Part shown: in pieces, positions 1-44,412 of the stretch
Layout of the letters: each line of letters starts with the position of its first letter
Position numbering within the stretch: the stretch's first letter is position 1
Origin: Labilibaculum sp.
GTDB taxonomy: Bacteria > Bacteroidota > Bacteroidia > Bacteroidales > Marinifilaceae
Direction of reading: 5' to 3'
Length of the DNA stretch: 44,996 nucleotides
NCBI GenBank assembly: GCA_016760525.1
Contig: JAESUW010000042.1
Coordinates: 1-44,996, forward strand
Translations under genes and position numbers: made by a program
Notes under the pieces: generated by a model
What the model was told of the DNA's origin: nothing
The model's input: only the letters and a program-made list of their open reading frames with translations
Database searches by the model: none

Positions 1-1017
1 ATTCGTTTGCTGGATCCTCAAAACACAAAAATTCCATCTTTTTATATTTATGACAATTATTCGATAGAATTGACCGAAGCCCGAAAAGAATTGAAATTAG
101 CTAAAAGTAAGAATGGAGAATCAGATTTAGATACAGAAGTTTTGTTTGTGAAAATGCAAGGGATTGAAGCGAACGTTCGCGAAGAACTTTGCACAAATAT
201 TTCTCAGTTTGGTGATGTTCTGGCTAATGCACTAAATCAATTGGCGCATTTCGATTTACTGATAGCGAAAGCTGTCCAGGCCAAAAAATGGGTTTTAAGT
301 AAGGCTAAAATATCCGGAGAGAAAACTTTGTATGTGGGAATGTTTAACCCGATGATTAAAAATGAACTGGCAAATCAGAAAAAGGAATATCAAGCAATTG
401 ATATTGAACTTGAAAAATCGGTTTGCCTGATTACCGGGGCGAATATGGCAGGGAAAACAGTGGTGTTAAAAACGCTCGCCCTTTGTCAGTATCTGTTCCA
501 ATTTGGCTTTTTTGTTCCAGCCACATCGGCGCAAATTAGCATTGTTGATAAAGTAATGATATCGGTAGGCGATGAGCAATCAGAAGTAAATGGTTTGTCT
601 TCTTTTGCTTCGGAAATGTTGAATGTGAGCCGTATGGTAAAAGATTCTAAAAGTCAGAACAATGTCTTGATTTTGATTGATGAATTGGCTCGAACAACAA
701 ATCCGGTGGAAGGTTTGGCAATTGTAAATGCTGTTGCAGATATTTTTTATCAGGGAAAAATTAAAAGTGTAATAACCACGCATTACAGTGGTTTAAAATC
801 CAAGTTCAGAAAATTGAGGGTAAAAGGTCTGGACAAGGATTTGGGTGTAAATACAATCACCCACAAAAATATTAACAGTTATATGGATTATTCATTGGTA
901 GAGGATTTGGAAGGGGAAGTTCCTCATGAAGCGCTTCGAATTGCTTCTTTATTGGGAATAGATAAAGAGATTATTGATGGGGCGCAGAACCAATTAACGA
1001 GTAAGAACAAATTATAA
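1..1017 (+). CDS. kamC: MutS-like ATPase of the lysine aminomutase cluster (KamC-like reactivase component), 5' truncated by window edge
   Basis: Frame is open from base 1 (I-R-L-L-D-P-Q...). Walker A GANMAGKT, Walker B LILIDELARTTNP and ITTHY are typical of the MutS C-terminal ATPase. It lies immediately upstream of kamD/kamE. Confidence 0.8.
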   Translation: MRLLDPQNTKIPSFYIYDNYSIELTEARKELKLAKSKNGESDLDTEVLFVKMQGIEANVREELCTNISQFGDVLANALNQLAHFDLLIAKAVQAKKWVLSKAKISGEKTLYVGMFNPMIKNELANQKKEYQAIDIELEKSVCLITGANMAGKTVVLKTLALCQYLFQFGFFVPATSAQISIVDKVMISVGDEQSEVNGLSSFASEMLNVSRMVKDSKSQNNVLILIDELARTTNPVEGLAIVNAVADIFYQGKIKSVITTHYSGLKSKFRKLRVKGLDKDLGVNTITHKNINSYMDYSLVEDLEGEVPHEALRIASLLGIDKEIIDGAQNQLTSKNKL

Positions 1018-1027
1018 TCAGGAAGAA

Positions 1028-2581
1028 ATGGAGAGGAGTAAACTAGGTCTTGACTTTGAGAAAGTTAGACATGCAAAAGAGGTGTCGAAGCGAATTGCAG
1101 ACGATGTTCAAAAATTCGTAGACAACTACTCAACTGTTTCAGTTGAGCGTACTTTGTGTCGTCTTTTAGGAATCGACGGAGTTGATAACAATGAAGTACC
1201 ACTACCAAATATTGTTATTGATGAACTTCAGGAAAAAGGAGTTTTGAGCGAAGGTGTAATGTTCTTTTTGGGAAATGCTGTTTTGGAAACAGGTTTAAAC
1301 CCACAAGATATTGCAGAGAAAATTGCGGTTGGAGAATTGGATATAACTAAGATTCCGGTTCGTTCAACAGAAGAAATTCACAAGGCAATTCAACCTTATG
1401 TAACGAAAAGCATACAGGTAATTAAAGATCGAAAAGCGAAAAGAGATAATTACATAGATACAATTGGAGAAGGAGTCAAACCATATTTGTACGTGATTGT
1501 TGCGACAGGTAATATCTACGAAGATGTTGTTCAGGCAGAGGCTGCAGCTCGTCAGGGTGCTGATATTATTGCGGTAATTCGTACCACCGGACAAAGTTTG
1601 TTGGATTACGTTCCTTATGGTGCTACAACCGAAGGTTTTGGAGGAACTGTTGCAACACAAGAGAACTTCCGAATTATGCGTACTGCCTTAGATAAGGTGG
1701 GTGAAGAAGAAGGTCGTTACATTCGTTTGTGTAACTACTGTTCTGGTTTGTGTATGCCCGAAATTGCTGCAATGGGAGCAATAGAAGGATTGGATGTGAT
1801 GTTGAACGATGCATTGTACGGTATCCTTTTTCGCGATATTAATATGCAACGCACCATTGTAGATCAGTATTTCTCTAGATTGTTGAATGGTTTTGCTGGT
1901 GTAATTATTAATACCGGAGAAGATAATTACCTAACAACTGCTGATGCATTTGATGAGGCTCACACAGTGTTGGCTTCTGATTTTATTAATGAGCAGTTGG
2001 CTTTGGCCGCAGGTTTGCCTGAAGAGCAAATGGGATTAGGTCATGCTTTTGAAATGACTCCCGATTTGGAAAATGGGTTTCTTTATGAGTTGGCACAAGC
2101 GCAGATGATCAGAGAAATTTTTCCGAAAGCGCCTCTGAAATATATGCCTCCAACAAAATTTATGACCGGAAATGTATTTAAAGGTCATGTTCAGGATGCA
2201 TTATTCAATCAAATTTCAATTTGGACAGGACAAGGAATTCAGTTGTTGGGAATGCTGACTGAAGCAATTCACACACCATTCATGTCCGATAGATATCTTT
2301 CTATTGAGAATGCAAAATACATCTTTAATAATATGAAGAGTATTGGCGATGAAATGGAATTTAAAGAAGGCGGAATTATTCGTTCGCGTGCAGCAAAAGT
2401 TCTTGATGATGCAACCGAACTGGTTGAGAAAATCGAAAAAGAAGGATTGTTTACAGCACTTGAAAAAGGGATTTTTGCAGCTATAAAACGTCCCAAAGAT
2501 GGTGGTAAAGGTTTAGCAGGTGTTGTGGAAAAAGGAAGCAACTACTTCAATCCGTTTATAGAATTATTACATAAAAAGTAA
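1028..2581 (+). CDS. kamD: lysine 5,6-aminomutase alpha subunit
   Basis: 517 aa; MERSKLGLDFEKVRHAKEVSKRIADDVQKFVDNYSTVSVERTLCRLLGIDG and TTGQSLLDYVPYGATTEGFGGTVATQENFRIMR are recognisable as KamD; adjacent to KamE. Confidence 0.93.
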   Translation: MERSKLGLDFEKVRHAKEVSKRIADDVQKFVDNYSTVSVERTLCRLLGIDGVDNNEVPLPNIVIDELQEKGVLSEGVMFFLGNAVLETGLNPQDIAEKIAVGELDITKIPVRSTEEIHKAIQPYVTKSIQVIKDRKAKRDNYIDTIGEGVKPYLYVIVATGNIYEDVVQAEAAARQGADIIAVIRTTGQSLLDYVPYGATTEGFGGTVATQENFRIMRTALDKVGEEEGRYIRLCNYCSGLCMPEIAAMGAIEGLDVMLNDALYGILFRDINMQRTIVDQYFSRLLNGFAGVIINTGEDNYLTTADAFDEAHTVLASDFINEQLALAAGLPEEQMGLGHAFEMTPDLENGFLYELAQAQMIREIFPKAPLKYMPPTKFMTGNVFKGHVQDALFNQISIWTGQGIQLLGMLTEAIHTPFMSDRYLSIENAKYIFNNMKSIGDEMEFKEGGIIRSRAAKVLDDATELVEKIEKEGLFTALEKGIFAAIKRPKDGGKGLAGVVEKGSNYFNPFIELLHKK

Positions 2582-2645
2582 TTATAAGTATCAGGTATCA
2601 AGTAGAAAGTTCCAAGTCTAAAAAATTAAGTTTTTGGAGCTGGGA

Positions 2646-2678
2646 AGTCCCCATTTCAGGGGGGATTTAGGGGGGTGT
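2646..2678. repeat. G-rich intergenic repeat with small hairpin (TCCCC-atttca-GGGGGA ... TTTAGGGGGGT)
   Basis: Sequence agtccccatttcaggggggatttaggggggtgtt in the kamD-kamE gap. Confidence 0.4.
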
Positions 2679-2733
2679 TAAAAGGTTCAACTAAGATAAC
2701 TTCTTGATATTATAAAATAAAGGAGACAAAAAA

Positions 2734-3522
2734 ATGAGTGGAGGTCTTTATTCAACCGATTCCAACGAATTTGATAAAACACTTGATCTAACTAAGATCA
2801 AGCCTTATGGTGATACCATGAATGATGGTAAAACTCAGCTTAGTTTTACTTTGCCGGTAGCGAAAGGCGACGAAGCAATTGAAGCTGCCAAGCAGATGAT
2901 GAGAAAAATGGGTTTTGAAAATCCTCAGGTAGTTTATGTACAGGAATTGATGGCTGGGTTTACATTTTTCAATTGTTATGGCAATTGTGTTCATACTGTA
3001 GATTTTACGGGAATTACCGTTCCTAAAGTGGAAGCAACAGCTATGGATATGCACGAAACGGATGATTTTATTAAAGAAAATATTGGTCGCCCGATTCGTA
3101 TTCTTGGAGCCAGTACTGGCAGCGATGCACATACCGTAGGTATTGATGCAATTATGAATATGAAAGGTTTTGCCGGACACTATGGTTTGGAGCGTTACGA
3201 CATGATGGAAGCTTTGAATATGGGAAGTCAGGTGCCAAACGAAGAATTTATTGCGAAAGCGATTGAATTTGAGGCAGATGTCCTTTTGGTATCTCAAACG
3301 GTAACTCAAAAGGATGTTCACATTAAAAATCTTGTTGAGCTTGTTGAACTAATGGAAGCTGAAGGATTACGCGAAAAAGTAATTCTGATTTGCGGTGGAC
3401 CGCGAATTTCTCATGAGCTGGCAAAAGAATTAGGCTACGATGCAGGATTCGGAATGAACAAATATGCCGATGATGTAGCATCATATGCGGCACAAGAATT
3501 AAGCAGAAGATTAAATCAATAG
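2734..3522 (+). CDS. kamE: lysine 5,6-aminomutase beta subunit (B12-binding)
   Basis: 262 aa; cobalamin-binding DxHxxG motif in ASTGSDAHTVGIDAIMNMKG; follows KamD. Confidence 0.93.
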   Translation: MSGGLYSTDSNEFDKTLDLTKIKPYGDTMNDGKTQLSFTLPVAKGDEAIEAAKQMMRKMGFENPQVVYVQELMAGFTFFNCYGNCVHTVDFTGITVPKVEATAMDMHETDDFIKENIGRPIRILGASTGSDAHTVGIDAIMNMKGFAGHYGLERYDMMEALNMGSQVPNEEFIAKAIEFEADVLLVSQTVTQKDVHIKNLVELVELMEAEGLREKVILICGGPRISHELAKELGYDAGFGMNKYADDVASYAAQELSRRLNQ

Positions 3523-3523
3523 T

Positions 3524-3571
3524 CAAAAAGTCAAAAGGTCGAAGAGTCGAAAAGTCAGAAAGTTCAATGTC
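3524..3571. repeat. degenerate 8-bp tandem repeat (AGTCRAAA-type, about 6 units)
   Basis: Phased reading: agtcaaaa agtcaaaa ggtcgaag agtcgaaa agtcagaa agttcaat between kamE and the CoA-transferase gene. Confidence 0.6.
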
Positions 3572-3636
3572 ACTAACCATTAGGTAATCATCTGAAACTA
3601 ATGACCAATGATTAATCAACCAATAACTAAAAAGAC

Positions 3637-4296
3637 ATGGATAAAAAAGAAATCAGAGAGGTGATTGCCAAGAGAGCTGCTCTCGAATTACAAAATGGGG
3701 ATGTAGTAAATCTTGGAATTGGATTGCCTACCATTATCCCGAATTACGTTCCCGAAGATGTAAATGTGATTTTACAATCTGAGAATGGATTGTTAGGTAT
3801 GGGTGCTGCTCCTGCTGAAGGTGAAGAAGATCCTGATTTTGTGAATGCAGGAGGTGGATTCATAACATGTAAAAATGGAGCAAGCAGTTTCGATAGTTGT
3901 CTTTCTTTTGGAATTATTAGAGGAGGACATGTTGATGTGACTGTTTTAGGTGCTCTTCAGGTTGACGAAAAAGGAAATTTGGCGAACTGGATTATTCCGG
4001 GTAAAAAGACTCCTGGCATGGGAGGAGCTATGGATTTGATCGTTGGAGCTAAGCGTGTGATTCTTGCCATGGAGCATACCGCACGTGGAAATCACAAAAT
4101 TATGACTGATTGTAATCTTCCTTTAACTGCTGCTGGTCAGGTAAACATGATTATCACCGAAATGGGTGTTATGGATATCGTTCCTGAAGGAATTCTTTTG
4201 AAAGAGATCAATCCATTGTTTACGATTGAGCAAATTCAGGAAGCTACTGATGCAAAATTAATAATTGCTGAGAATTTAATTGAAATGCGTAAGTAG
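3637..4296 (+). CDS. atoA: acetoacetate/butyrate-type CoA-transferase subunit beta
   Basis: 219 aa; VNLGIGLPTIIPNYVP, SENGLLGMGAAP, GGHVDVTVLGALQVDEKGNLANW are hallmark SCOT/AtoA sequences. Confidence 0.85.
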   Translation: MDKKEIREVIAKRAALELQNGDVVNLGIGLPTIIPNYVPEDVNVILQSENGLLGMGAAPAEGEEDPDFVNAGGGFITCKNGASSFDSCLSFGIIRGGHVDVTVLGALQVDEKGNLANWIIPGKKTPGMGGAMDLIVGAKRVILAMEHTARGNHKIMTDCNLPLTAAGQVNMIITEMGVMDIVPEGILLKEINPLFTIEQIQEATDAKLIIAENLIEMRK

Positions 4297-40519: not shown

Positions 40520-41782
40520 ATGACTAATAGAAATAATATAATTGCAGCTATCGACATTGGCACAACAAAAATTGTGGCCATTATGGGAGAGGTAGACTCT
40601 GATGGGAAGTTGAGAATTATCGGTATGGAGAAAATCGTATCGAGAGGCGTTAAGAGAGGAGTGATTCACAGTATCGAGGATACAATTGGAGCTATTCGTG
40701 AGGTTGTTGATCGATTGTTGGAGAAAACAAACAAGGAGATTTCTAAAGTTTATGTAGGTATTGCGGGACAACATATTCGTAGTATTAAAAATAGACAATT
40801 TAAATACATCCAAAATGGGATTGGTGAAATAACTAAATTGGATATTGATGAAATCGTTAGTGAAAATTTTAGAATTCCAATTGAGGTAGGAGAACAAATA
40901 TTACATGTTATTCCGCAAGATTATGTGGTTGATAAAGAAGCCGGTATTCGTAACCCAATAGGAATGGCTGGTAGAAGATTAGATGGCAATTTTAATATTA
41001 TTATTGGAAGAACTGCTTCTGCACGCAATATTGAGAAATGCGTGAAGGAAGTTGGTTTGGAAATAGAAGAATTAGTATTGGAACCGCTGGCCTCTTCATT
41101 GGCTGTTTTAAGCGAAGAAGAAAAGGAAGCAGGAGTTGTTTTAGTTGATATTGGTGGTGGAACCACTGATATTACCGTCTATTTTGATGGCATACTTAGA
41201 CATACTGCGGTTATCCCTTTTGGTGGTGATATTGTTACACGCGACATAAAGGAAGGTTGTGCGGTACTAATTAAGCAGGCCGAAGCTTTAAAAATTCAGT
41301 TTGGTGAAGCGGTTGCCGATATGGTTGAAGAAGAAAAAGTGGTTACCATTCCAAGTGTTGGAGGTTGGGATCCGAAAGAAATTTCTTTTAAAACTTTGGC
41401 GCAAATCATTCAATGCCGAATGGAGGAAATTATCGATAGCATTAAATTTCAAATTGAAATTACCGGCTTGTACGATAAGATTGGTGCAGGAATCGTATTG
41501 ACTGGTGGTGGTGCATTATTGACAAATCTGGATGTACTAACACAAAAACAAACAGGAATTGATGTTCGCATCGGATATCCTGAGACTTCGACTAAAATTA
41601 TATTGGATGAAACATTGAATCAGCCAATTTATTCAACAGGAATAGGATTGATGTTAAAAGGTCTGAATAAGCCTGTTAAAAGAATATCAGATCAGAATGC
41701 ACAAAAGAATAAAACAAGCCAAAAGAAAGGATTACAGAGATTCTTTGGTGCTTTATTTGATATGGATGATTCAAAAATGTAA
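40520..41782 (+). CDS. ftsA: cell division protein FtsA
   Basis: 420 aa; actin-like AAIDIGTTKIVAIMGE, GVVLVDIGGGTTDITVY, GIVLTGGGALL; C-terminal amphipathic GLQRFFGALF. Confidence 0.95.
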   Translation: MTNRNNIIAAIDIGTTKIVAIMGEVDSDGKLRIIGMEKIVSRGVKRGVIHSIEDTIGAIREVVDRLLEKTNKEISKVYVGIAGQHIRSIKNRQFKYIQNGIGEITKLDIDEIVSENFRIPIEVGEQILHVIPQDYVVDKEAGIRNPIGMAGRRLDGNFNIIIGRTASARNIEKCVKEVGLEIEELVLEPLASSLAVLSEEEKEAGVVLVDIGGGTTDITVYFDGILRHTAVIPFGGDIVTRDIKEGCAVLIKQAEALKIQFGEAVADMVEEEKVVTIPSVGGWDPKEISFKTLAQIIQCRMEEIIDSIKFQIEITGLYDKIGAGIVLTGGGALLTNLDVLTQKQTGIDVRIGYPETSTKIILDETLNQPIYSTGIGLMLKGLNKPVKRISDQNAQKNKTSQKKGLQRFFGALFDMDDSKM

Positions 41783-41816: not shown

Positions 41817-43133
41817 ATGATTGACGAATTGTTACCGGTTGATTTTGAACCTAAAGAGAAATCCATTATTAAAGTGATTGGTGTGGGTGGCGGTGGAAGT
41901 AATGCTGTTAATCACATGTTAAAAGAAGGAATCACTGGGGTTGATTTTGTAATTTGCAATACCGATTCTCAAGCCCTGGAGAACAGCCAGGTGCCCATTA
42001 AGGTGCAGCTGGGTAAATTGCTTACCGAGGGAAGAGGTGCTGGAAATAAGCCGGAAAGAGGGAGAGAATCTGCACTTGAGAGTATTGATGATATCAATAA
42101 AGTTTTAAGTCAGAAAACTAAAATGATATTTGTGACTGCAGGCATGGGCGGGGGAACTGGAACAGGTGCCGCTCCTATTATTGCAGAAACAGCCCGACAG
42201 CAAGGTGTGCTTACAGTTGGAATAGTAACCATTCCTTTTCGTTTCGAAGGAAAGCGAAGAATTGAGCAGGCCATGGAAGGCATAGCCAATTTAGAAAAGC
42301 ATGTTGATGCACTTCTAATCATCAATAACGAAAAGTTACGGATGATGTATGGTGATTTGAAATTGTCGGATGCCTTTGCAAAGGCCGATGATGTTTTATC
42401 TATTGCAGCTAAAAGTATTGCGGAAATAATTACTGTTCATGGTTATGTAAATGTCGATTTTGCCGATGTGGAAACTGTGATGCGTGATAGTGGTGTGGCA
42501 GTGATGGGATCGGCTTCGGCATCAGGGGAAGACAGAGCTATTCGCGCTATTGAGGAAGCTCTTACTTCTCCATTATTAAATAGTAATAATATATGTGGCG
42601 CTCGAAATATCTTATTAAATATCATCTCGGGTAAAAATGAGGTGACCATGCAAGAGGTAAGTATAATTACCGATTACGTTCATGATGTTGTAGGTGATGA
42701 GGTGAGTATTATTTGGGGAAATGGCAATAGCGATAGAATGGATGATGAGTTAGGCGTAACGATTATTGCGACTGGGTTTTCTGAAAGTCCTATTCCTGAA
42801 TTGAATATTGAACCAAGAAAATCGATTCGGGAAGAAGCTCCTAAATTGGAATTGATTATTGAGAACCCTGCCGAAGCTGAGGAGGTTTTCGCAACGAAGA
42901 AACGGGATGAAAAGCAACGAAGGGAAGAGTTAATGAGAAAACGTTCAGAGGAAGTTCGTGAGGATTATTCTGAGCTTGAAGAGGAAAAAGAAGTTGTAAC
43001 TGTAAGTAAGGATCCTATTCCGGTGAAGGAAGAGAAAGAAGCAGAAGATACCGAACACAAAAAAGGAAGCCTGGACAATTGGTTTAAAGATAAGTTTACA
43101 CAGATTTTTGATAATAATGATTCTTCGATGTAG
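41817..43133 (+). CDS. ftsZ: cell division protein FtsZ, paralogue 1 (non-canonical C-terminal tail)
   Basis: 438 aa; GVGGGGSNAVNHM, AGMGGGTGTGAAP, T7-loop VNVDFADVETVM; long charged linker ending LDNWFKDKFTQIFDNNDSSM. Confidence 0.95.
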   Translation: MIDELLPVDFEPKEKSIIKVIGVGGGGSNAVNHMLKEGITGVDFVICNTDSQALENSQVPIKVQLGKLLTEGRGAGNKPERGRESALESIDDINKVLSQKTKMIFVTAGMGGGTGTGAAPIIAETARQQGVLTVGIVTIPFRFEGKRRIEQAMEGIANLEKHVDALLIINNEKLRMMYGDLKLSDAFAKADDVLSIAAKSIAEIITVHGYVNVDFADVETVMRDSGVAVMGSASASGEDRAIRAIEEALTSPLLNSNNICGARNILLNIISGKNEVTMQEVSIITDYVHDVVGDEVSIIWGNGNSDRMDDELGVTIIATGFSESPIPELNIEPRKSIREEAPKLELIIENPAEAEEVFATKKRDEKQRREELMRKRSEEVREDYSELEEEKEVVTVSKDPIPVKEEKEAEDTEHKKGSLDNWFKDKFTQIFDNNDSSM

Positions 43134-43176: not shown

Positions 43177-44412
43177 ATGACTGAGGATTTAATTGATTTT
43201 AGCTTACAGGAAAACGAATCGTCGATTATAAAAGTGATCGGTGTTGGTGGTGGTGGTGGTAACGCTGTAAATTATATGTACAAGCAGGGCATAAAGGATG
43301 TAGATTTTATTATTTGCAATACCGATGCCCAAGCTCTTGAAACAAGTGAAGTTCCTGTGAAAATTCAGTTAGGGGAATCACTTACTGAAGGTCGGGGAGC
43401 AGGAAATAAGCCTGAACGAGGTGAGCAATCTGCAATTGAGAATTTAGAAGATATAAATGAGGTGCTTGCGGATAATACAAAAATGGTTTTTATTACTGCA
43501 GGAATGGGAGGTGGAACCGGAACAGGAGCTGCTCCTGTTATCGCAAAAGCGGCCAAAGACATGGGGATTTTAACCGTTGGTATTGTTACAATTCCATTCC
43601 GGTTTGAAGGACGTCAGCGATTGCATCAAGCCATTGCAGGTATTAATAAACTAAAAGAGAATGTAGATTCACTTTTAGTGATCAATAATGAAAAACTGAG
43701 TGAAATTTATGGCGATTTAAAGTTGTCAACAGCCTTTTCGAAGGCCGATGATGTATTGGCTACTGCGGCCAAAGGAATTGCCGAAATCATAACTCTTCAC
43801 GGTTATATAAACGTTGACTTTGAAGATGTAAAAACGGTAATGACTGATAGTGGTGTTGCTGTAATGGGATCTGCTTCTGCCGAAGGTGAGAATCGTGCTG
43901 TTAATGCCATTCGAGGAGCTCTTACATCGCCATTGTTGAATAGCAATGATGTTAGAGGTGCTAGAAATATTCTTCTAAATATTAGTTCGGGTGAGGATGA
44001 AGTAACCATGGATGAGGTTGGTCAAATAACCGACTACGTTCAGGAAGCTGTTGGCGATTATGCTTCTATTATTTGGGGAACGGGTCAGGATTTCTCATTG
44101 GAGAATAAGGTCTCTGTTACAATTATTGCAACTGGCTTTGATAATGGCTTAATACCAGAAGAGAATATAAGTCCAAAACCTGAATCTTTTAAAGCAGGAA
44201 GAGGGCGTAGTAGTGTTGCGGAACAAGTGAAAATGCATCTGGAAGAAGAAGAAGACAAATTGGAAGATAATAAGTTGATCTTGACAGATTTGAAGGATAC
44301 TGAAATTGATGAAATTGAAAACATCCCGGCTTACAAACGAAAATTGAATAATTTAGGGGATCATAACTTTCAATCGGGTAAAATTATCCGATTCAAACTA
44401 GATGATGAATAG
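43177..44412 (+). CDS. ftsZ: cell division protein FtsZ, paralogue 2 (canonical-like C-terminal peptide)
   Basis: 411 aa; GVGGGGGNAVNYM, AGMGGGTGTGAAP, T7-loop INVDFEDVKTVM; C-terminal EIENIPAYKRKLNNLG. Confidence 0.95.
   Translation: MTEDLIDFSLQENESSIIKVIGVGGGGGNAVNYMYKQGIKDVDFIICNTDAQALETSEVPVKIQLGESLTEGRGAGNKPERGEQSAIENLEDINEVLADNTKMVFITAGMGGGTGTGAAPVIAKAAKDMGILTVGIVTIPFRFEGRQRLHQAIAGINKLKENVDSLLVINNEKLSEIYGDLKLSTAFSKADDVLATAAKGIAEIITLHGYINVDFEDVKTVMTDSGVAVMGSASAEGENRAVNAIRGALTSPLLNSNDVRGARNILLNISSGEDEVTMDEVGQITDYVQEAVGDYASIIWGTGQDFSLENKVSVTIIATGFDNGLIPEENISPKPESFKAGRGRSSVAEQVKMHLEEEEDKLEDNKLILTDLKDTEIDEIENIPAYKRKLNNLGDHNFQSGKIIRFKLDDE

Follow-up and report, generated by a model that had tools for sequence, protein, structure and literature searches.

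The first of two tandem ftsZ genes at the end of the dcw cluster of Labilibaculum sp., a member of the Marinifilaceae, is likely to encode a self-tethering FtsZ paralogue, FtsZ1, that would form a composite ring with a sister protein, FtsZ2, which bears the C-terminal peptide (CTP). FtsZ1 is without a CTP and instead possesses a greasy, FtsA-like segment that is predicted to be helical, and so the protein probably holds itself to the membrane. The best reading of the sequence is that FtsZ1 is a natural fusion of FtsZ with a membrane-targeting sequence (MTS), that the MTS probably is derived from FtsA, and that membrane anchoring is predicted. Self-tethering of FtsZ1 was suggested in a preliminary description of the window, which is the entire stretch of 44,996 nucleotides that was analyzed, and this interpretation is supported by the comparisons reported here. 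The tail peptides of FtsZ1 and FtsA and their coordinates as described at that stage match the window sequence exactly (Table 1).

Two FtsZ paralogues at the end of the dcw cluster

In the window the dcw cluster terminates with ftsA, ftsZ1 and ftsZ2, which are flanked by genes that we take to be ftsQ-like (first) and GatB/YqeY-like (last). Pfam and the TIGR00065 equivalog both identify the two products as full FtsZ proteins, and the GGGTGTG GTP-binding signature and the NxDxxD motif of the T7 loop are both present in FtsZ1. The nearest named loci to FtsZ1 are those of Labilibaculum species, with 87–92% identity over the protein, followed by those of Marinifilum.

Table 1. Coordinates of ftsA, the two ftsZ genes and their C-terminal elements in the window
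Feature	Position	Strand	Description
ftsA	40520..41782	+	420 aa; TIGR01174 362 bits, PF14450, PF02491
FtsA C-terminal tail KKGLQRFFGALFDMDDSKM	41723..41779	+	FtsA-type MTS, judged from position and pattern
ftsZ1, tail-type FtsZ paralogue without CTP	41817..43133	+	438 aa; TIGR00065 364.6 bits (cut-off 295.2), PF00091 155.7 bits, PF12327 75.9 bits
FtsZ1 linker, residues 322-418	42780..43070	+	Fast-evolving, with indels
FtsZ1 C-terminal amphipathic tail LDNWFKDKFTQIFDNNDSSM	43071..43130	+	Conserved motif; FtsA-tail profile 15.0 bits; low-confidence model helix
ftsZ1 stop codon	43131-43133	+	
ftsZ2, CTP-type FtsZ paralogue	43177..44412	+	411 aa; TIGR00065 374.5 bits; PAYKR motif
FtsZ2 CTP ENIPAYKRKL	44317..44346	+	Presumed FtsA-docking site

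Of 60 family genomes examined, 59 yielded ftsZ and every one of these encodes two FtsZ proteins; the remaining genome is incomplete and yielded no FtsZ. The genes are in tandem at the ~50 family loci that were read, are split over two contigs in one draft genome, and follow ftsA at all but one of the loci. At this exception (L062; G019:C64) the ftsZ1-ftsZ2 pair has no ftsA upstream, and loss of FtsA was considered but rejected as the gene is located on another contig (G019:C19:713-1822). Every family genome that has FtsZ also has FtsA. Other families of the order mostly possess one FtsZ which usually is CTP-bearing.

The CTP that is usual at the C-terminus of FtsZ is a protein-docking peptide which binds FtsA and other partners. 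At all family loci read, the upstream copy FtsZ1 is without this element and the downstream copy FtsZ2 possesses it; by inspection of the loci read, a PAxxR CTP is absent from every non-last copy and a CTP is present in every last copy. A CTP profile yielded ~27 bits for CTP-type or single FtsZ proteins and decoy-level scores for tail-type FtsZ, among which 0 of 67 exceeded the 99th percentile of the decoys, a set of 331 genes drawn from the window and from 19 stretches of another genome of the genus. A disguised CTP within the FtsZ1 tail was rejected on these scores. The GGGTGTG signature is intact in all 67 tail-type proteins and the T7 loop in 62, with one of the misses due to a truncated reading at locus L071. 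The latter (ftsZ1 of G029:C8) contains an in-frame TAA after NAVNHM, between two compensating indels relative to G017, that probably is an assembly error. As the GTPase motifs are kept, tail-type FtsZ should still bind GTP and polymerize. On these signatures, FtsZ1 is classified as an FtsZ by its body and as non-canonical by its tail.

The C-terminal tail of FtsZ1

The tail that replaces the CTP in FtsZ1 has the consensus W-[FLI]-x3-[FLI]-x2-[ILMF]-F, the first six positions of which constitute a short form. Within the last 45 residues, the pattern W-[FLIV]-x3-[FLIMV] is present in 51 of 52 family FtsZ1 proteins; by comparison, it is absent from all 94 CTP-type or single FtsZ and occurs in 10 of the 331 decoy gene ends. 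The full 10-residue pattern W-[FLIV]-x3-[FLIMV]-x2-[FLIMV]-[FIL] is matched by 45, 0 and 2 members of the same three sets, respectively. Thus, conservation of the FtsZ1 tail is far beyond chance. Among 44 distinct anchored tails the Trp residue is found in 43, and columns 0, 1, 5, 8, and 9 are 82–100% hydrophobic with most other columns polar. Degraded tails occur at L058, L068, L070, L108, and L130. Lack of conservation among FtsZ1 orthologues had been set beforehand as an outcome that would refute self-tethering; instead, the tail is present family-wide and is found again in further families of the order.

Conservation of the tail also was compared with that of the fast-evolving linker. In 17 close relatives, residues on the hydrophobic face of the tail remain in the same class and mostly are invariant whereas those on the polar face vary, and the tail is free of indels compared to an average of 15 gap columns in the adjoining linker. 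Owing to the variable polar face, mean omega for the 20-residue tail (0.20) is no lower than for the linker (0.16); the globular domain has a value of 0.044. Slower evolution of the tail than the linker overall is therefore untrue by omega, and conservation is confined to the length of the tail and its hydrophobic face. It is very improbable that FtsZ1 is a decaying duplicate with an incidental tail: although the omega of the tail is no lower than that of the linker and the G029 gene has the in-frame stop described above, the globular-domain omega is low, the GTPase motifs are intact, the hydrophobic face is conserved without indels, and ftsZ1 is kept in every family genome with FtsZ. The purifying selection measured largely refutes decay.

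Amphipathicity of the FtsZ1 and FtsA tails, which had been proposed from the sequence, was assessed by the helical moment (Fauchere-Pliska, 14 residues). The values were 0.53 for FtsZ1 and 0.59 for FtsA, and in comparison with shuffles of the last 30 residues the moment stood out for FtsA (p ~0.03) but was unremarkable for FtsZ1 (p ~0.12). Median moments of FtsA tails are 0.56 in the family and 0.63 in other families, and those of CTP-bearing FtsZ ends are 0.32–0.38, so that the window FtsZ1 value is intermediate. The column-averaged moment of the tails gave p 0.11 at 100 degrees. On the basis of the latter value and that for the window tail, the hydrophobic moment was rejected as sole evidence. 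As it is unremarkable for a single sequence, the case is built on conservation and on profile similarity to FtsA. The FtsZ1 tail has a net charge of ~-1 and is not basic. An AlphaFold model built on a shallow alignment of 12 close sequences (mean pLDDT 50) places a helix at residues 419-432, which coincides with the conserved segment, following a low-confidence coil linker, and lends weak support as the model is poor overall.

The tail alternatively may be a protein-interaction motif, that is, a rewired peptide that docks FtsZ1 on FtsA, FtsZ2, or another divisome protein. A generic lipid anchor would not require so strict a pattern as the near-invariant Trp and the fixed spacing, the window tail has a modest hydrophobic moment, and the normal CTP at the same place is itself a docking peptide. 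Nevertheless, such a role is unlikely: tail-type FtsZ proteins are without a CTP signal, their tails resemble those of FtsA whose known role is membrane binding, and FtsA tails in the Odoribacter-like half of the family also are W-[FL]-rich. Direct tethering of FtsZ1 by its tail remains the preferred reading.

Relationship to FtsA tails and a predicted composite ring

The FtsZ1 tail and the tail of Bacteroidales FtsA have in common the spacing of bulky hydrophobic residues, an F-D-rich ending, and a location at the very end of the protein, where each follows a flexible linker. The FtsZ1 tail differs in being attached to a tubulin-like protein, in the addition of the near-invariant Trp, and in being less basic than many FtsA tails. 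The F-D-x-x-D-S-x-M ending to which attention was first drawn is literally present in both window tails, but the Ser is confined to these and to one relative, whereas an F-D-x-x-D-x-x-M ending is kept in most Labilibaculum and Marinifilum relatives.

A profile of FtsA tails was assembled from 30 genomes of the order with a single FtsZ at the locus, with exclusion of the family and of tail-type FtsZ. The window FtsZ1 tail scored 15.0 bits and tail-type FtsZ had a median of 10.5 bits, whereas the 331 decoys had a median of -0.4 and reached 5.8 at the 99th percentile and 8.5 at most. The maximum for CTP-type proteins was 4.3, and no CTP-type or single FtsZ surpassed the decoy 99th percentile. Permutations then were done in which residues were swapped only within chemical classes, so that amphipathicity and charge pattern were kept. 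When 13 family representatives were considered jointly, the observed mean score was 11.8 versus 5.8 (SD 0.95, maximum 8.6) in 200 permutations, a result that overstates independence as the representatives are related. Singly, the tails at L066 and L134 were at the floor of 0.005 and the window tail gave p 0.12; for most single tails, 5–20% of permutations reach the FtsA-profile score.

These latter proportions, the short, low-complexity nature of the tail, and the different-looking tails in copy 1 of families f32 and f69 and in f16 accord with a tail that binds the membrane but that converged from linker sequence rather than arising from ftsA. This explanation has nearly an even chance. It is countered by the joint permutation result and the two tails at the floor, by the spacing and the F-D-x-x-D-x-x-M ending common to FtsA of relatives, and by a gene order that fits a fusion. 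Two results that were not part of the preliminary description, loss of the CTP from FtsZ1 and the match of FtsZ1 tails to the FtsA-tail profile, which few other protein ends equal, strengthen the case for self-tethering. Of the two origins considered in that description, acquisition is favored over convergence by moderate evidence, with convergence still a sizeable possibility. Transplantation of an FtsA membrane tail onto a duplicated FtsZ, where it took over the position of the CTP, such that the ring would contain one self-anchored and one FtsA-anchored FtsZ and, in three-copy families, a second, different self-anchored FtsZ, is proposed tentatively and falls a little short of an even chance.

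The two FtsZ proteins, both with intact GTPase motifs, stem from a tandem duplication of old date within the dcw cluster. The upstream protein lost the CTP and, past a variable linker, ends in the conserved FtsA-like amphipathic segment (residues ~419-432), whereas the downstream protein retained the CTP. In the mechanism envisaged, this segment would form a helix that lies on the inner membrane and thereby anchors FtsZ1 filaments directly, and FtsZ2 would dock on FtsA through the CTP. Copolymerization of FtsZ1 and FtsZ2 would generate one ring with both direct and FtsA-mediated attachment, the ratio of which could tune membrane residence and treadmilling. Less certainly, the tail may have come from ftsA by duplication of ftsA-ftsZ followed by a deletion that fused the linker of the first ftsZ to the 3′ end of the second ftsA, events which would give the exact gene order seen, namely ftsA, tailed ftsZ, and ftsZ with CTP. 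SepF was rejected as an alternative anchor as none of 31 relatives carries the protein.

As a separate observation, the Odoribacter-like half of the family has a shorter FtsA of strongly diverged sequence (L053, L054, L056, L058, L061, L063-L065, L067, L068, L070, and L072-L076). In about half of the family genomes FtsA fails to reach the cut-off of TIGR01174, and the SHS2 domain was undetected at L058. Some single-FtsZ relatives also have a diverged FtsA. Perhaps constraint on FtsA was relaxed in the Odoribacter-like half because FtsZ1 anchors itself.

Engineered E. coli FtsZ with the FtsA MTS binds membrane and forms treadmilling rings in vitro, with membrane coverage ~six-fold over that with the MinD MTS and with vortex rotation slowed from 35 to 23 nm/s (PMC7320174). 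As the FtsA MTS alters coverage and rotation in that system, the FtsZ1:FtsZ2 ratio could set ring dynamics. In these FtsZ-YFP-mts proteins, as predicted for FtsZ1, the C-terminal hub is replaced by an amphipathic MTS, in one construct that of FtsA itself, but the chimeras are man-made whereas FtsZ1 is natural, conserved, and paired with a CTP-bearing FtsZ (PMC5979038, PMC7320174). Why FtsZ delegates membrane attachment, and the effect of attaching directly, so far have been studied with artificial FtsZ-mts chimeras. FtsZ1 is a conserved natural candidate that shares an operon with its CTP-bearing sister in Bacteroidales from the environment and probably also from the gut, and the pair makes a division of labor between two tethering modes directly testable.

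Paired FtsZ proteins of which one dispenses with an adaptor are known elsewhere. Land-plant chloroplast FtsZ1 binds membrane and has lost the interaction with ARC6 that FtsZ2 keeps, so that here too an adaptor-free protein with a membrane-binding C-terminal motif accompanies an adaptor-bound one; however, this was a separate event and the plant protein ends in a short motif of the RR/KLFF type instead of an FtsA-like helix (PMC11285052). No such end is present in the window FtsZ1, which terminates in QIFDNNDSSM, and the two ftsZ genes of the window differ from the chloroplast pair in being in tandem in the dcw cluster. Chloroplasts are not known to possess FtsA. OdinFtsZ1 of Odinarchaeota binds membrane by an amphipathic helix and OdinFtsZ2 uses the adaptor SepF on its C-terminal tail, but the archaeal helix is N-terminal whereas the candidate helix of the window FtsZ1 is C-terminal and the adaptor presumably is FtsA (PMC12583498). 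Alongside these parallels, the Bacteroidales proteins suggest a concrete route to a self-tethering FtsZ, the transfer of an ftsA tail onto ftsZ. No description of a natural self-tethering FtsZ in Bacteroidales, or in any bacterium, was found in the open-access literature searched, in which few subscription journals and preprints are represented. Bacteria have been stated to have one FtsZ (PMC11285052), and in a survey of the few with two ftsZ genes the extra copy was outside the dcw cluster (PMC9871819); the tandem ftsZ genes of Bacteroidales contradict both statements.

Distribution and history of tail-type FtsZ

Beyond this family, about six more within the Bacteroidales have tail-bearing ftsZ tandems. 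The tailed copy is first and the CTP copy last in f72 (L106, L107), f23 (L080, L115, L116), f16 (L078), and f84 (L108, with a diverged tail). Families f32 and f69 (L098-L101) have three consecutive FtsZ, of which copies 1 and 2 are tailed and without a CTP and copy 3 has a CTP. These triplets (L098, L099, and L100 in f32; L101 in f69) are located after ftsA and include two tail types, for example LQQAKQFLINFFDDLEE and NWIQTTFDVLFNADEE. No tandem intact FtsZ pair was seen outside the order among ~130 class-mates and ~50 further members of the phylum.

In a tree of globular domains, family FtsZ1 proteins form one clade (93/63) and family FtsZ2 proteins another (77/68), with moderate support. These separate clades indicate that the duplication probably is older than the family. 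Copy 2 of f32 and f69 and copy 1 of f84 are placed near family FtsZ1 (99/94), as are single FtsZ proteins that form a long-branched group. A single origin is compatible with the data for the clade of family FtsZ1, f32/f69 copy 2, and f84 copy 1 (p-AU 0.33). One origin for all tail-type FtsZ of the order is disfavored, albeit not rejected (p-AU 0.079).

Two further arrangements were observed. At L157 (G243, f90; positions 736-3741) the ftsZ genes are in tandem with the CTP copy first, and in the second copy GGGTGTG is replaced by GGVVGTG and there is neither a CTP nor a tail, which denotes a duplication without a tail. Second FtsZ-like genes with reading frames of ~230–260 aa are located away from the main ftsZ at G139:C5:37533, G235:C1:238600, and G204:C14:49257.
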